A DNA stretch of 64,000 nucleotides from Natrinema hispanicum (GTDB lineage: Archaea; Halobacteriota; Halobacteria; Halobacteriales; Natrialbaceae), in the NCBI RefSeq assembly GCF_900111485.1, contig NZ_FOIC01000009.1:62001-126000 (forward strand). The letters run 5' to 3'. Below are positions 39,798-45,452 of the stretch, piece after piece. Numbering within the stretch: position 1 is the first letter of the stretch; each line of letters starts with the position of its first letter. Position numbers and translations under genes: made by a program. The notes below the pieces were generated by a model. That model had not been told where the DNA came from. It saw only the letters and a program-made list of their open reading frames with translations, and did no database searches.

Positions 39798-39934
39798 ACG
39801 CAAGAGATGATCCTGCACAGATAAATAGATGGACGGCTACCTATGCAGCCAGCGGCGATTTGGACCAGTCGCTGCGCCACGACCGCCGGCCGGGATGGGC
39901 AGTCTTATTTTTGGGTTGATCAAACAGGGCTGAC
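39798..39934. promoter_or_regulatory. Divergent promoter region: epimerase / R2lox-ACP operon
   Basis: Two outward-facing TATA-like elements: tatttatc on the minus strand (about 39821-39829) about 25 bases from the epimerase ATG, and cttattttt on the plus strand (39904-39912) about 26 bases before the R2lox ATG at 39935. Both spacings predict leaderless transcripts. No clear operator palindrome is visible between them. Confidence 0.6.
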
Positions 39935-40783
39935 ATGTCGCCGGAAGCGCGGGAGACGACGGAGCGATACTTCAGGCAGGCAGTCGAGCGCCACTGGGAC
40001 CCGTACGCGATCGACCTGACGGCTGACCGGGAAACACTCACCGACCTCAGCCGGAGCGCGTTTACGCAGTTGCGCGCGACGCTCGCTATGTTCGGCGCTG
40101 GCGAGGAACACGTCACCGAGGATCTGGTGCCGGTTGCCGCGGTCGTCGACGACGACAGCGATCAGCGATTCGTCGCGAGCCACCTCTATGACGAGGCCAA
40201 ACACGCTGCCTTCTTCGAGCGATACTGGAACGACGCTGTCAGGCCCGCAGCGGAGGCTCGAGGCCTCGAGCCGACCGCACCGACGGCCGACCGCTGGTTC
40301 ACCGACTCCTACGAGGACGTCTTCGACCGAACCGAAACGGCGATGAACCGCCTGCTCGAGGCTGACACGCCTGCAAACCGGGCTCGAGCGTACTGTCACT
40401 ACCACCTGACGGTCGAGGGTGTCTTCGGCCAGACCGGCTTTCACGCCGTCGAGTCGACGTTCGGCCCGGAGACAGAGGGTCCGTCGCTTCCCGGGCTGGT
40501 CGAGGGGTTTGGCGGCATCCGACGAGACGAGGGCCGCCACGTTGGCTACGGGATGGACCGACTTGCGGCCCTCCTCGAGAACGGCGCGGTCGAACGCTCG
40601 CTCGTCGAGGAGACGGTCATGGGCCTTGCAGAGCTGGTCGACGCCGTCGTCGAACGGATGGGGTGGCATCGCCTGCCTGGCCCCGACAGCGACGACCTCG
40701 TCGCGTTCGTCGCCCAGCAGCGTCGCAACCGCCTCCAGCAACTGCCTGGCGGAGCCGCCGTCGACCCGGCGGCCGAGGACTGA
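39935..40783 (+). CDS. R2-like ligand-binding oxidase (R2lox)
   Basis: A 282-residue ferritin-like dimetal protein. The ligands are in R2lox spacing: E57, E87/H90 (DEAKH), E161 and E199/H202 (DEGRH). Val60, three residues after the first Glu, and Tyr156, five before E161, match the pair that forms the Val-Tyr ether cross-link unique to R2lox. Ribonucleotide reductase R2 usually has Asp as first ligand and lacks this pair. R2lox proteins hold a Mn/Fe centre and co-purify with a long-chain fatty acid; their substrate is unknown. It is the first gene of the ACP operon, 2 bases before the reductase. The motif match is seen in the sequence; the role is inference. Confidence 0.85.
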   Translation: MSPEARETTERYFRQAVERHWDPYAIDLTADRETLTDLSRSAFTQLRATLAMFGAGEEHVTEDLVPVAAVVDDDSDQRFVASHLYDEAKHAAFFERYWNDAVRPAAEARGLEPTAPTADRWFTDSYEDVFDRTETAMNRLLEADTPANRARAYCHYHLTVEGVFGQTGFHAVESTFGPETEGPSLPGLVEGFGGIRRDEGRHVGYGMDRLAALLENGAVERSLVEETVMGLAELVDAVVERMGWHRLPGPDSDDLVAFVAQQRRNRLQQLPGGAAVDPAAED

Positions 40784-40785
40784 CC

Positions 40786-41757
40786 ATGCGAGCCGTCGAA
40801 GTCCCGGAATACGGCGACAGCGACGTGCTGACGGTCACCGACCGGGACGCGCCCACGCCGAGCGACGACGAGGTCGCAATTGACGTCGCAGCCGCCGGCG
40901 TCAACTTCGCCGATATCGAGCAACGCCGTGGGGCCTACCCGGACAGTCCATCGCCGCCGTTCGTCCCAGGGCTGGCCGTCGCCGGTACCGTCACGGCCGC
41001 GCCAGCGACGAGCGACCTCGCGGTCGGCGACCGGGTCGCCGCGCTGTCGTCTACCGGCGGGTATGCGACGGTCGCGACGGCACCCGTCGACCGTACGTTC
41101 CGGATGCCAAACTCGATCCCGTGGGCCGACGCGACGGCCCTGCCGGTCCAAGGGCTGACCGCCCACAACGTCCTCCACGAGTGGGGCGAGCTGTCGGCCG
41201 GCGATCGGGTGCTGATCCACGCCGGGGCCGGCGGTGTCGGCTCGCTCGCCGTCCAGTTGGCCGCTGCGGCCGGGGCGACCGTCTTCGCAACTGCAAGCAC
41301 CGCGGCGAAACGCGACCTGGCTCGAGAGCTTGGGGCCGACCACACCATCGATTACACGGACACCGACGTTGCGGACGCCATCCACGAACGGACGGGCGGC
41401 TATGGTGTCGACCTCGTCATTGATGGGGTCGGCGGCGACGCCTTCGCTGCCAGCGTGGACGCGCTCGCGCCGGTCGGCCGCATCGTCTCGTTCGGGATGG
41501 CAAGCGGGTCGGTGCCGACCGTCGCGACCCCGCGGCTGTTCTTCGCGAATCAATCCGTTCGTGGCTATCACCTCGAGCACGCGCTCGAACACGTTCCCGA
41601 GCGCGTCCTCGGCGCGGTGCCGTCGCTGGTTGACCAGGTTGCCACCGGGCAGGTCGACGTCGTCGTCGACCGGACACTTGCGCTGGCGGACGCCGAGCAG
41701 GCTCACGACGCGCTTGCCGACCGCGAGACCGTCGGCACGGTCGTCCTCGAGCCATAA
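40786..41757 (+). CDS. Zinc-free MDR reductase (quinone oxidoreductase / enoyl-reductase type)
   Basis: A 323-residue medium-chain reductase. Its N-terminal GroES-like half has AAAGVNFADIEQRRGAY, and a Rossmann half carries AGAGGVG at residues 146-152, expected to bind NADPH. It lacks the GHE catalytic-zinc motif, placing it with quinone oxidoreductases. The same branch supplies enoyl reductases in fatty-acid and polyketide synthases. With ACP and ketosynthase immediately downstream, an enoyl-ACP (or oxidised product) reductase is a reasonable inference. It starts 2 bases after the R2lox stop and ends 27 bases before the ACP start. Confidence 0.85.
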   Translation: MRAVEVPEYGDSDVLTVTDRDAPTPSDDEVAIDVAAAGVNFADIEQRRGAYPDSPSPPFVPGLAVAGTVTAAPATSDLAVGDRVAALSSTGGYATVATAPVDRTFRMPNSIPWADATALPVQGLTAHNVLHEWGELSAGDRVLIHAGAGGVGSLAVQLAAAAGATVFATASTAAKRDLARELGADHTIDYTDTDVADAIHERTGGYGVDLVIDGVGGDAFAASVDALAPVGRIVSFGMASGSVPTVATPRLFFANQSVRGYHLEHALEHVPERVLGAVPSLVDQVATGQVDVVVDRTLALADAEQAHDALADRETVGTVVLEP

Positions 41758-41784
41758 GGGCTGACGAGAACCGGGACGGTTTTG

Positions 41785-42054
41785 ATGACGGTCGCTGAAC
41801 GACAGCACATGACAGCTACGGAGGGTGTACCCGATCGTGTTGAAGGGATCGTTGCCGACCGACTGCGCGTCGACTCGGACGCGTTCGACGACGGAACGCC
41901 GTTCGACGGGGAGACGCTTGATGCCGATTCGCTCGATCTGGTCGAAATCGCGGAAGCCATCGAGGCGGCGGTCGGCGTCCACATTCCTGATGCAGATCTC
42001 GAGGACCTCGAGACGGTCGGCGACCTGACGGCGTACGTCGACGAACGCGCCTGA
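41785..42054 (+). CDS. acpP: Acyl carrier protein
   Basis: An 89-residue acidic helical carrier (a later start at 41809 gives 81). The phosphopantetheine serine sits in DADSLDLVE (Ser49 from the longer start), the classical D-S-L motif. Helices II-III follow (IAEAIEAAVGVHIPDADLEDLETVGDLTAYV). This is a bacterial-type type II ACP. Archaea generally lack ACP, so its presence is unusual, and it would be modified by the AcpS encoded two genes downstream. One base separates its stop from the ketosynthase ATG. Confidence 0.9.
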   Translation: MTVAERQHMTATEGVPDRVEGIVADRLRVDSDAFDDGTPFDGETLDADSLDLVEIAEAIEAAVGVHIPDADLEDLETVGDLTAYVDERA

Positions 42055-42055
42055 G

Positions 42056-43276
42056 ATGAGCCGCGAGGTGGTCGTGACCGGTCTCGGACTAGTGACACCA
42101 CTCGGCGAGAGCGTCGAGCGTACGTGGACGGGGCTGCTCGAGGGCACGAGCGGCGCAGGTCCGATAACGCACTTTGACCCCGACGAGACCAGCCTGCGGG
42201 CCTCGATCGCCTGTGAAGTGGGGACGGAACCGGCAGCCGTCGCGCCCGACGACCGTGTCGACGACCGGACGATGGGCCGGTACGCCCAGTTCGCCGTCGC
42301 CGCAACCGCCGAGGCACTCGAAGACGCCGGCTTCGATGCCGCAAGCCCCGACTGGAACGCCGAGCGAGTCGGGACCAGCATCGGCTCCGGACTGGCCGGC
42401 CTGTCCGAAATCGAAGCCGCGGCAGGCGCGCGTCCCTCGCCGTCGTTTCTCGTGAGCGCGTTGACGAACCTCGCAGCCGGCCACGTCAGCATGACGATCG
42501 ATGCGAAGGGCCCGAACCGCGCGCCGGGCACAGCGTGTTCGGCGGGTACCCACGCCATCGCAGCCGCGGCCGACGACATCCGGCGCGGAAGGGCCGACGT
42601 CGTCGTCGCCGGCGGGACCGACGCTGCCATCTCGCCGCTGGGCGTCGGCAGCTTCGACGCGATGCGGGCGCTCAGCACCACTGCCGACCCCACCGCGGCG
42701 AGTCGTCCCTTCGATAGCGATCGGGACGGGCTCGTGCTCTCGGAGGGGTGTGGCATCGTCGTCCTCGAGTCACGCGAGCACGCTCGCGAGCGCAACGCGA
42801 CCCCGTACGCCGCGATCACCGGGGCCGGTCGGACCGCCGACGCACATCACCCTACGCGGCCGGCCGAATCGGGCGACGGGCTTCGGCGCTGTCTCGAGCA
42901 GGCACTGTCCGATGCCGACAGAGAGTCGGCCGCCGTCGATCACGTCAACGCCCACGCGACGAGTACGCCGGTCGGCGACGCCCGTGAAGCCGACGCGCTC
43001 GCGGCGGCGTTCGACGAGACCGGCGTCCCGCCGACGACGAGTATCAAGGGCCATCTCGGGCACGCGCTCGGCGCTGCCGGTGCGATCGAGGCCGCCGTCG
43101 TCGCGCGGACCATCGCAGAGGGCACGATCCCGCCGACGCTGAACTACGAGACGCCCGATCCGGCCTGTGACCTGCCGGTCGTCACCGAGCCACGCGAGAC
43201 GGCCGTCGACGTCGCCGTGAGTACGTCGGCCGGTTTCGGTGGGACGAACGGCGCGCTCGTGTTCGAGCGCCCGTAA
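42056..43276 (+). CDS. fabF: Beta-ketoacyl-ACP synthase, FabF type
   Basis: A 406-residue elongating ketosynthase: decarboxylative condensation of malonyl-ACP with an acyl thioester. The thiolase-fold catalytic triad is complete: Cys161 in GTACSAG, His300 in NAHATST and His333 in KGHLGH, spaced as in bacterial FabF. The C-terminal TSAGFGGTNGALVF gate loop is also present. Because Cys-His-His is kept, it is neither a thiolase (Cys-His-Cys) nor a decarboxylase-only chain-length factor. No second ketosynthase or KAS III is in the operon, so priming is unexplained. Confidence 0.93.
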   Translation: MSREVVVTGLGLVTPLGESVERTWTGLLEGTSGAGPITHFDPDETSLRASIACEVGTEPAAVAPDDRVDDRTMGRYAQFAVAATAEALEDAGFDAASPDWNAERVGTSIGSGLAGLSEIEAAAGARPSPSFLVSALTNLAAGHVSMTIDAKGPNRAPGTACSAGTHAIAAAADDIRRGRADVVVAGGTDAAISPLGVGSFDAMRALSTTADPTAASRPFDSDRDGLVLSEGCGIVVLESREHARERNATPYAAITGAGRTADAHHPTRPAESGDGLRRCLEQALSDADRESAAVDHVNAHATSTPVGDAREADALAAAFDETGVPPTTSIKGHLGHALGAAGAIEAAVVARTIAEGTIPPTLNYETPDPACDLPVVTEPRETAVDVAVSTSAGFGGTNGALVFERP

Positions 43277-43278
43277 CG

Positions 43279-43731
43279 ATGGCTGACGACGCAGCTGTCC
43301 CCGGCTCTGATCCCATCGTCACGCATGGCGTCGATATCGTCGCCATCGCGCGTATCGCGGACTTGCTCGCGGAGTTCGGTGACTCGTTTCGCGACCGCGT
43401 GTTCACGCCGGCCGAACAGGCCTACTGCGAGACGCAGGCTGACCCACCACAGCATTACGCCGCTCGCTGGGCAGCCAAGGAGGCATTTCTAAAGACGCTC
43501 GCTGGCGCGTCCCCCAGCGTGCCGACCGCCGCCATCGAAATCGACCGTCAGGATGATGGTCCGCATCTCTCGCTGGCTCCCGTCGCAGCCGACGCCCTCG
43601 CTGCGACGCTCGAGGAACGCGGTAGCTCGCTCGCAACGGCCGACATCGACGTCAGCCTGAGCCACGATCAGATAGCAGGGTATGCCGTCGGCTCGGTCAC
43701 CGTCGTGGGGACGACGACCCGACACCACTAA
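43279..43731 (+). CDS. acpS: Holo-ACP synthase (phosphopantetheinyl transferase)
   Basis: A 150-residue AcpS-type transferase that moves 4'-phosphopantetheine from CoA onto the ACP serine. The Mg-binding residues are in family positions: D19 in THGVDIV, and E68 and K72 in WAAKEAFLK (49 and 4 residues apart, as in E. coli). The strand VSLSHDQIAGYAVG follows. The length is slightly above the ~125 usual, by an N-terminal acidic extension. It lies 2 bases after the ketosynthase, and a 27-base gap precedes the acyltransferase. Confidence 0.92.
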   Translation: MADDAAVPGSDPIVTHGVDIVAIARIADLLAEFGDSFRDRVFTPAEQAYCETQADPPQHYAARWAAKEAFLKTLAGASPSVPTAAIEIDRQDDGPHLSLAPVAADALAATLEERGSSLATADIDVSLSHDQIAGYAVGSVTVVGTTTRHH

Positions 43732-43758: not shown

Positions 43759-44706
43759 ATGACGACTGACGAGTCCACCACGACCCTCGATGGGACGGCG
43801 TTTCTCTTCCCCGGCCAGGGGAGCCAGACCGTCGGGATGGGTCGGGCGTTCTACGACGACTGGCCCGAGACGCGCGCGGTGTTCGATCGGCTTGACGACG
43901 CCCTCGAGCTCAATCTCTCGGGGTTGTGCTTCGACGGGACCGCCGAGGCAATCCAGCAGCCGAGCAACACCCAGCCGCTACTGCTGGCGACGGGAATCGC
44001 AGTCTACGAGGGCGTGACGGCTCGCTTCGATGTCGAGCCGGCAGCCGTCGCCGGCCACAGTCTTGGTCACTTCACCGCGCTGGCGGCCGCCGGCGCGATC
44101 GAGCCCGAAACCACGGCCGAACTCACCCACAAGCGGGGACAGTGCATGGAACGGGCAGCAGCCGCCGACGGCCCGGGGACGATGGTCGCGGTCTTGCTGG
44201 CCGACCCGGACGTGGTGACCGAAGCGTGTGCCGGCCGCGAGGACGTCGGCGTTGCCCTGTACAACGCGCCGAAACAGACCGTCATCAGCGGCACGACCGA
44301 GGGCGTGGCGGCGGTCCGGGAACGGCTCGAGGAGCGGACGACCGCCCGGTTTCGTGAACTCGAGGTCGGCGCGGCGTTTCATTCGCCAGTGATGGAAGCG
44401 GCCGTCGACTGTGTCGAAACGGCGATGGCCGATGTGACGCTTCGAGAGGCCGAAATTCCCGCTGTCTCCGACGTGACCGGCGACCTCTATACCGATCCGG
44501 CCGTCGCACGGCGGGATCTGACCGCACAAATCACGTCGCCGGTCGACTGGGTGGCTGTCATCGAAACGCTTCGCGCGCAGGGGATCGACCGGTTCGTCGC
44601 GTTCCCGCCGGCCGACGTGTTGGCGGGGCTTGTCGAGCGCATCGCGCCTGAGGCCGAGTGCTGGACGCTCGAGACGCCAGCGGATGCCCGGGAGGTGTTC
44701 GCGTGA
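43759..44706 (+). CDS. fabD: Malonyl-CoA:ACP acyltransferase, FabD type
   Basis: A 315-residue acyltransferase that loads malonyl (or a related unit) onto ACP. The N-terminal FLFPGQGSQTVGMG is the family oxyanion loop. The nucleophile is Ser101 in GHSLGH and the partner is His208 in AFHSPVM, as in E. coli FabD. The residue two after the nucleophile and the FHSPVM motif (HAFH/YASH-like region in modular synthases) do not decide between malonyl and methylmalonyl. The stop codon overlaps the GTG of the ketoreductase (gtga), so the two are co-translated. Confidence 0.92.
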   Translation: MTTDESTTTLDGTAFLFPGQGSQTVGMGRAFYDDWPETRAVFDRLDDALELNLSGLCFDGTAEAIQQPSNTQPLLLATGIAVYEGVTARFDVEPAAVAGHSLGHFTALAAAGAIEPETTAELTHKRGQCMERAAAADGPGTMVAVLLADPDVVTEACAGREDVGVALYNAPKQTVISGTTEGVAAVRERLEERTTARFRELEVGAAFHSPVMEAAVDCVETAMADVTLREAEIPAVSDVTGDLYTDPAVARRDLTAQITSPVDWVAVIETLRAQGIDRFVAFPPADVLAGLVERIAPEAECWTLETPADAREVFA

Positions 44707-45452
44707 TCGACTTCGACGGCGAAGTCGCGGTCGTCACCGGCGGAACGCGTGGCATCGGTCGTGCGGTGGCGACGCGACTGGCCGAGCGGGGAGCGACCGT
44801 CGTCGCAACCTATCACGAGGACGACGCGGCCGCAGACGAGACGGCGGCCACGCTGGCGTCGTTCCCTACTGAGACGACCGTCGAGCGGTTCGATGTCGCC
44901 GACTACGAGACGGTGGCGGCGACGTTCGAGACCGTCGCCGACCGGTATGGCCCTCCGACAGTGCTGGTGAACAACGCCGGAACGGTGGCCGACGGCTTGC
45001 TGGTTCGGATGTCTCCCGAGCAGTGGCAACGGGTTATCGACGTTAACCTCACGGGCACGTTCTACTGCACGCGGGAAGCGGCCAGACGAATGCTACGACG
45101 TGACGACCGAGGTGGCCGAATCGTCAACGTCGCAAGCGTCGCCGCTCAGCACGGTGGGGCCGGGCAGGCCAACTACGCCGCGAGCAAGGCCGGCGTCCTC
45201 GGCCTCACGCGTGCGGCGGCCCGCGAGCTTGGGGGCAAGGGCATCCGCGTCAACGCCGTCGCACCCGGCTACACCGACACCGACCTGCTCGCGGATTCAC
45301 GCGGCTACGAGTCGGCCGTCGAGACGAACACCGCGAGCGGCCGCACCGCGACGCCCGAAGAAGTCGCCGACGTGATCACCTTCCTTGCCAGCGACGCCGC
45401 CTCGTACATCAACGGCGAGGTCGTACGCGTCGACGACGGCCTCGCGCTGTGA
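44703..45452 (+). CDS. fabG: 3-oxoacyl-ACP reductase, FabG type
   Basis: A 249-residue SDR that reduces 3-oxoacyl thioesters with NADPH. The cofactor loop is GGTRGIG (residues 13-19), then NNAG, N115, and the catalytic S145, Y158 and K162 with exactly the E. coli FabG spacing. The C-terminal ASYINGEVVRVDDG is typical. It opens with GTG overlapping the fabD stop. It is the last gene of the operon; its stop codon coincides with the first base of a palindromic repeat that may act as the 3' boundary. Confidence 0.92.
   Translation: MIDFDGEVAVVTGGTRGIGRAVATRLAERGATVVATYHEDDAAADETAATLASFPTETTVERFDVADYETVAATFETVADRYGPPTVLVNNAGTVADGLLVRMSPEQWQRVIDVNLTGTFYCTREAARRMLRRDDRGGRIVNVASVAAQHGGAGQANYAASKAGVLGLTRAAARELGGKGIRVNAVAPGYTDTDLLADSRGYESAVETNTASGRTATPEEVADVITFLASDAASYINGEVVRVDDGLAL

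Follow-up and report, generated by a model that had tools for sequence, protein, structure and literature searches.

Solved R2lox structures include GkR2loxI (4HR0), Mt Rv0233 (3EE4), SaR2loxI/II and the S. erythraea protein (7QBP). They bind a free fatty acid with the carboxylate bridging the metals (PMC6399176, PMC6060897). In the numbering of the G. kaustophilus protein (Gk), A171 lines the fatty-acid tunnel and is Ala in the R2lox of the literature (PMC6399176), and Y175 hydrogen-bonds the Mn1-bound water (PMC6060897). Since R2lox was discovered, one claim about its physiological reaction has been made, and support for it is weak. In 2024, alkane monooxygenase activity was claimed for GkR2loxI: C10-C22 alkanes were consumed by crude lysate, the gene surroundings are those of alkane metabolism and beta-oxidation, and a haloarchaeal R2lox was reported up on hexadecane (PMC10867098). 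However, the alkane remaining with a ligand double mutant differed by only 11-21% from wild type, that is, little activity was lost (PMC10867098). A first-pass annotation of the DNA studied here had called the reaction unknown. The 2024 claim dates this statement and weakens its premise, but does not remove it.

The second system of interest is type II fatty acid synthesis (FAS), with FabD, FabF, FabG, acyl carrier protein (ACP) and AcpS in bacteria and a MECR-type reductase in mitochondria. ACP-dependent lipid synthesis also employs enzymes built as a dimetal carboxylate helical bundle: plant stearoyl-ACP desaturase and mycobacterial DesA. According to a 2012 review, only a few unrelated archaea have an ACP, gained by transfer (PMC3533463).

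Here we analyse a cassette that joins R2lox to type II FAS genes in a haloarchaeon. The window, the whole stretch of DNA that was analysed, comprises 64,000 nucleotides from Natrinema hispanicum. Like known R2lox, the cassette protein has the fold, the ligands and the Val/Tyr pair, and lacks the tunnel-blocking Phe. It differs from them in being only about 25% identical, and in carrying Gly for Ala171 and Phe for Tyr175. Known R2lox sit beside beta-oxidation or alcohol dehydrogenase genes, whereas the setting here is anabolic and includes an ACP. With type II FAS the cassette shares ACP, AcpS, FabD, FabF and FabG; its MDR reductase also matches the enoyl reductase domains of PKS/FAS, with quinone oxidoreductases scoring higher. 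In contrast to type II FAS, the host is archaeal, FabA/Z is absent, no FabH scores above the cut-off, the cassette holds no thioesterase, and R2lox is added. The superfamily and fold are common to class I RNR R2 (Z up to 28), yet the ligand and cross-link pattern and the small tunnel residue are those of R2lox, and no R1 gene lies nearby. Acyl-ACP desaturases are alike by analogy only. They are absent among the best structural and sequence matches listed, although a distant relation is still possible; unlike them, R2lox has the Val/Tyr pair, and an acyl-ACP activity of it would be hypothetical.

R2lox and type II FAS enzymes are known kinds, and it is their joint archaeal cassette for which we found no description. 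A search of the open library returned no literature on a haloarchaeal ACP cassette, or on R2lox within one, and such absence is not proof. For these haloarchaea at least, the cassette runs counter to the frequent assertion that ACP is missing from archaea.

The cassette and its R2lox

The features of the cassette are as follows.

39892..39912, + strand: promoter-like element GGGATGGGCAGTCTTATTTTT, a TATA-like box 23-31 nt before the R2lox ATG
39935..40783, + strand: R2lox-type oxidase, 282 aa, ATG start (ORF, profile, alignment, model and fold matches)
40112-40114 and 40400-40402, + strand: codons of R2lox Val60 and Tyr156; the same protein has Gly165 at the Gk A171 position and Phe169 at the Gk Y175 position
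40786..41757, + strand: MDR-superfamily NADPH reductase, PIG3/quinone oxidoreductase-like, probable enoyl reductase (profile matches)
41768..41785, + strand: second conserved promoter-like element GAACCGGGACGGTTTTGA before ACP, of putative function
41809..42054, + strand: acyl carrier protein, 81 aa, with DSL phosphopantetheine serine (PF00550; start picked by comparing relatives)
42056..43276, + strand: FabF-type beta-ketoacyl-ACP synthase (KS), Cys-His-His motifs present
43279..43731, + strand: holo-ACP synthase, AcpS (profile matches)
43759..44706, + strand: malonyl-CoA:ACP transacylase, FabD (profile matches)
44703..45452, + strand: beta-ketoacyl-ACP reductase, FabG, overlapping FabD by 4 nt; last cassette gene

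All seven genes lie on one strand in the order R2lox, MDR reductase, ACP, FabF-type ketosynthase, AcpS, FabD, FabG. The intergenic gaps down the cassette are 2, 51, 1, 2, 27 and -4 nt, followed by 115 nt to a dTMP kinase gene. FabG is the end of the cassette in relatives too; beyond it the flanks vary, and no constant flanking gene was found among the carriers. Only Natrinema-type relatives retain the dTMP kinase and the genes upstream, so we take the unit to be the seven genes.

The protein encoded at 39935-40783 is an R2lox by fold, ligands and cross-link pair. In the first-pass annotation E57, E87, H90, E161, E199 and H202 had been named as metal ligands and Val60 and Tyr156 as the cross-link pair, and both assignments hold: phmmer places the six ligands in register with those of G. 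kaustophilus R2lox (E57 at Gk E69, E161 at Gk E167), V60 at Gk V72 and Y156 at Gk Y162, and all eight residues are without variation across 78 aligned R2lox. The modelling that the annotation had suggested points the same way. An AlphaFold model, built with ten relatives (mean pLDDT 88.6), is nearest to solved R2lox (7qbp, Z 32.6; 3ee4, Z 32.2; 4hr0, Z 31.8). Its best 27 structural matches are all R2lox (Z 29.7-32.6), whereas RNR R2 reaches at most Z 28.0; Foldseek agrees. Superposition on R2lox structures covers about 250-262 residues at about 2-2.5 A rmsd, and about 258-262 residues at 2.1-2.5 A for the closest known R2lox. Sequence gives the same answer: every one of the best matches among solved structures is an R2lox, from G. 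kaustophilus, S. erythraea, S. acidocaldarius or M. tuberculosis. The score against Pfam PF00268 is just under the curated cut-off (31.7 against 33.6 bits), and the scores against the five NCBIfam R2lox models (NF006198-NF006202) all stay below theirs (best 110.7 bits against 194). Hence this is a divergent R2lox outside the named sub-families of NCBIfam. It presumably carries Mn/Fe and forms the Val60-Tyr156 ether cross-link. Many R2lox of haloarchaea appear in RefSeq as 'ribonucleotide-diphosphate reductase subunit beta' or under a like name, which is likely a misannotation (plasmid matches).

The assembly holds one R2lox, one ACP (PF00550), one FabD and one match to the cassette ketosynthase, and all of these lie together in the cassette. 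The type II FAS parts present with their catalytic motifs are ACP, AcpS, malonyl transacylase, ketosynthase and ketoreductase. FabA/FabZ (PF07977) has no match anywhere in the genome, and FabH has weak matches alone (at most 27 bits against a cut-off of 292). Nine MaoC-type matches occur in the genome, none of them inside the cassette. Genes for an electron donor, a dehydratase or a thioesterase are absent from within the cassette, no dehydratase was found beside it, and no alcohol/aldehyde dehydrogenase or acyl-CoA ligase gene adjoins its R2lox. The MDR reductase scores highest against quinone oxidoreductases and next against PKS/FAS enoyl reductase domains. In other haloarchaea the MDR gene adjoins ACP operons without R2lox and also R2lox genes without ACP.

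The spacing of the TATA-like box before R2lox would match a leaderless haloarchaeal transcript. Its position and CTTAT core are kept in N. limicola, N. hispanicum, Haloterrigena sp. H1, Haloarcula amylovorans, Haloferax mediterranei and the genome G291; Haloarcula pellucida and Halomicroarcula rubra have a T-run at this position. The element before ACP is kept in one further locus (L137) and, with one change, in another (L141). Two promoter-like elements make two transcripts possible, R2lox-MDR and ACP-FabG, an arrangement that could fit the rearranged cassette forms described below. The single transcript that had been read from the gene spacing is plausible, with the second conserved element as a caveat.

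Distribution and decay

The same seven-gene order occurs in at least 10 species of seven haloarchaeal genera. Carriers were named from a scan of a genome collection and from a plasmid collection. Intact order is found in N. limicola, N. hispanicum, Haloterrigena sp. H1, Haloarcula pellucida, Halomicroarcula rubra, Natronorubrum bangense, Natronolimnohabitans sp. A-GB9, Haloarcula amylovorans and Haloferax mediterranei (plasmid pHME505), and likewise in the window genome and G291. Thus R2lox and ACP genes do co-occur outside the window genome, the point on which the first-pass annotation had staked its proposal. The order stays fixed at R2lox identities down to 63%, and R2lox comes first in every intact case. 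Several cassettes are plasmid-borne, and the cassette probably spread horizontally among haloarchaea.

R2lox-like genes occur in 144 of 391 haloarchaeal genomes and FabD in 15. R2lox of the cassette clade occurs in 10 of the 391, and nine genomes have both this R2lox and FabD (hypergeometric P 9e-14); at the genus level the co-occurrence is 4/5 (P 5e-4). These P values overstate the case, because carriers would not count as independent genomes if the unit is passed on in one piece. The cassette-linked proteins tested in a tree of 71 haloarchaeal R2lox all group in a single clade, apart from the 61 others, and no ACP neighbours were found in the other clades of this tree. R2lox distances track those of MDR (r 0.96), FabG (0.97), FabD (0.88) and KS (0.87). 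With a pN/pS of 0.16, as low as for its cassette neighbours, R2lox is under purifying selection.

The cassette clade also differs in residues close to the metal site and the tunnel. In R2lox of intact cassettes Gk Y175 is replaced by Phe and Gk A171 mostly by Gly, whereas the other 61 haloarchaeal and two bacterial R2lox have Tyr and Ala there. At the Gk A171 position the window protein has Gly165; N. bangense, Natronolimnohabitans and the divergent members have Ala, and Phe never occurs. A small residue in place of the Phe of R2 would leave the ligand tunnel open; Ala itself is not strictly conserved. The two substitutions suggest a changed pocket and a changed substrate. Arg40 is present in 15/15 clade members, and in other haloarchaeal R2lox this residue is usually Glu or Asp.

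Several genomes have altered or decayed forms. Halostella pelagica (G053) has an intact R2lox followed by an MDR-FabG fusion, and ACP is absent. In this fusion (L051:8121-9326; loci L140/L051) MDR is in frame with the C-terminal part of FabG at the shared motif QANYAASKAG; it is either a relic of a cassette from which ACP through half of FabG was deleted, or an assembly join. In G301, R2lox overlaps or runs into FabD and the remaining cassette genes are gone. The layout on H. turkmenica pHTUR01 and in strain KLK7 is R2lox, MDR, a relic ACP, a relic KS and FabG, divergent from ACP-KS-AcpS-FabD. In Natrinema sp. SYSU A 869 the R2lox ahead of MDR, ACP and KS is split, and G029 carries R2lox-MDR at a distance from its ACP operon. 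The forms in Halostella, G301 and H. turkmenica point to an old linkage of R2lox with the cassette. G243, nested among cassettes that have R2lox, holds an otherwise complete cassette without it. The synthase therefore seems able to persist alone, and R2lox looks like an accessory, tailoring enzyme.

Some further features of the loci were seen in passing. Relative to N. limicola, dS is 0.17 for R2lox and 0.18 for ACP, lower than the 0.39-0.66 of KS, AcpS and FabD, perhaps reflecting recombination within the cassette. N. bangense carries the cassette within an 18.8 kb stretch whose chromosomal and plasmid copies (L143, L145) are identical, either a recent transfer or an assembly duplicate. On H. 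mediterranei pHME505, genes for a class III PHA synthase (phaC) and pantetheine-phosphate adenylyltransferase lie 2-5 kb upstream of the cassette (L167:4089-7003). Other haloarchaea also have more distant ACP-KS-AcpS-FabD-FabG operons without adjacent R2lox (L058, L060-L065), some beside an MDR gene.

Possible roles of R2lox in the cassette

We propose that R2lox is a tailoring oxidase of ACP-dependent acyl synthesis that acts on the acyl chain of the cassette, a reading in which we place about as much belief as doubt. AcpS would prime ACP and FabD would load malonate. The FabF-type enzyme would then extend the chain, FabG would reduce it, and the MDR enzyme would probably reduce the enoyl stage. 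Dehydration would fall to a MaoC-type hydratase encoded elsewhere, or the step would be skipped. The R2lox centre, probably Mn/Fe, would spend O2 and two electrons on one oxidation, most likely a hydroxylation. Its substrate would be the acyl chain made by the cassette, either as released acid or held on ACP.

Reaction and substrate are what we infer. On a Rhodococcus plasmid the neighbours of R2lox are a ferredoxin, an NAD(P)/FAD-dependent oxidoreductase and an alcohol dehydrogenase; on a Mycobacterium plasmid they are a fatty-acid-CoA ligase and an alcohol dehydrogenase. By analogy, these surroundings look as they would for a hydroxylase. No ACP neighbours of bacterial R2lox were found among plasmid records, to which this comparison is confined. 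Near other haloarchaeal R2lox, acyl-CoA dehydrogenase and enoyl-CoA hydratase genes recur. These neighbourhoods point to acyl or alkyl chains, and a tie to ACP is seen only in the cassette clade. AibH1H2, a Mn/Fe centre of unrelated fold, is proven to hydroxylate aliphatic C-H bonds (PMC10401708). Together with the acyl and alkyl neighbours, this precedent favours a two-electron oxidation, most likely hydroxylation. Adjacency is no proof of shared chemistry, and the carriers may not be independent if the cassette spread as a unit. The R2lox and MDR of Halostella without ACP, and the separation in G029, count against a tailoring role, and so does the absence of electron-donor, dehydratase and thioesterase genes from the cassette and of FabA/Z from the genome.

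More narrowly, the clade R2lox might be an O2-dependent hydroxylase or desaturase of acyl-ACP, or of the cassette product, in an archaeal ACP-dependent fatty-acid or polyketide pathway. This is a tentative possibility. If true, it would provide a natural R2lox substrate and a so far undescribed ACP-based product of archaea. Narrower still is a true acyl-ACP desaturase or hydroxylase that oxidises the ACP-bound acyl chain tail first, by analogy with the plant and mycobacterial enzymes. R2lox adjoins the only ACP of the genome, the smaller tunnel residue Gly165 would suit this role, and the invariant Arg40 could be an ACP-docking charge. Yet the known ligand sits head-first, with its free carboxylate at the metals. 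A thioester cannot copy this mode, which argues against acyl-ACP in that orientation; tail-first binding is possible. R2lox also persists in Halostella without ACP, and we consider this form of our explanation doubtful. The first-pass annotation had offered acyl-ACP or the released acyl product as substrate. An acyl product of the cassette is still the best guess, given the conserved linkage, but acyl-ACP itself is unproven: the carboxylate at the metals, Halostella without ACP, G243 without R2lox and the second promoter-like element all weigh against it.

R2lox might instead be a general hydroxylase of alkanes or free fatty acids that stands beside synthase genes only because an accessory block travels. 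The alkane consumption and gene setting of GkR2loxI and the response to hexadecane (PMC10867098) agree with this, as do the R2lox and MDR retained in Halostella, the catabolic genes around bacterial R2lox, and the plasmid-borne cassettes. A travelling block does not, however, sit well with an order fixed down to 63% R2lox identity with R2lox always first when intact, with flanks that vary outside a constant interior, or with metal-site and tunnel residues unlike those of other haloarchaeal R2lox. Furthermore, genes for alcohol/aldehyde dehydrogenase and acyl-CoA ligase do not adjoin it, and the double mutant is only 11-21% off wild type (PMC10867098). We regard this alternative as unlikely. 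Very improbable is a supply of octanoyl or pimeloyl groups for lipoate or biotin, in which R2lox would cleave the chain oxidatively as the P450 BioI does. An ACP-dependent cassette with one O2-using enzyme would suit this task, and BioB is in the genome, but BioB is just as frequent where the cassette is missing, and none of the 30 genomes tested has LipB. Chance neighbours, or a mixed locus lacking functional meaning, are hardly credible. That the block may hitch-hike together is the only point in their favour, and as to adjacency they are refuted by the fixed order, the overlaps and the co-occurrence at both genome and genus level.

The tailoring reading matters since a fixed-order, one-clade tie to a nearly complete carrier-protein synthesis set means that the neighbours themselves can make the candidate substrate. 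The R2lox substrate question is thus testable by deleting or expressing neighbouring genes. H. mediterranei, a laboratory strain among the carriers, is genetically tractable; in ATCC 33500 its R2lox is E6P09_RS15840, its ACP RS15850 and its KS RS15855.

Two other roles were rejected. R2lox as electron-transfer partner of MDR was set aside because MDR reductases are flavin-free and because MDR remains beside ACP operons even where R2lox is missing. R2lox as the missing dehydratase was dropped because dehydration needs neither O2 nor a redox metal.

Outside the cassette clade, one haloarchaeal R2lox clade (L112, L115, L118, L123, L125, L131 and others) adjoins enoyl-CoA hydratase and in some cases acyl-CoA dehydrogenase. 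In a different clade (L068, L081, L083, L084, L096) R2lox is followed by luciferase-like monooxygenase and MDR genes; this MDR is about 50% identical to that of the cassette, and a gene for an RPE65-like carotenoid oxygenase lies on the opposite strand.
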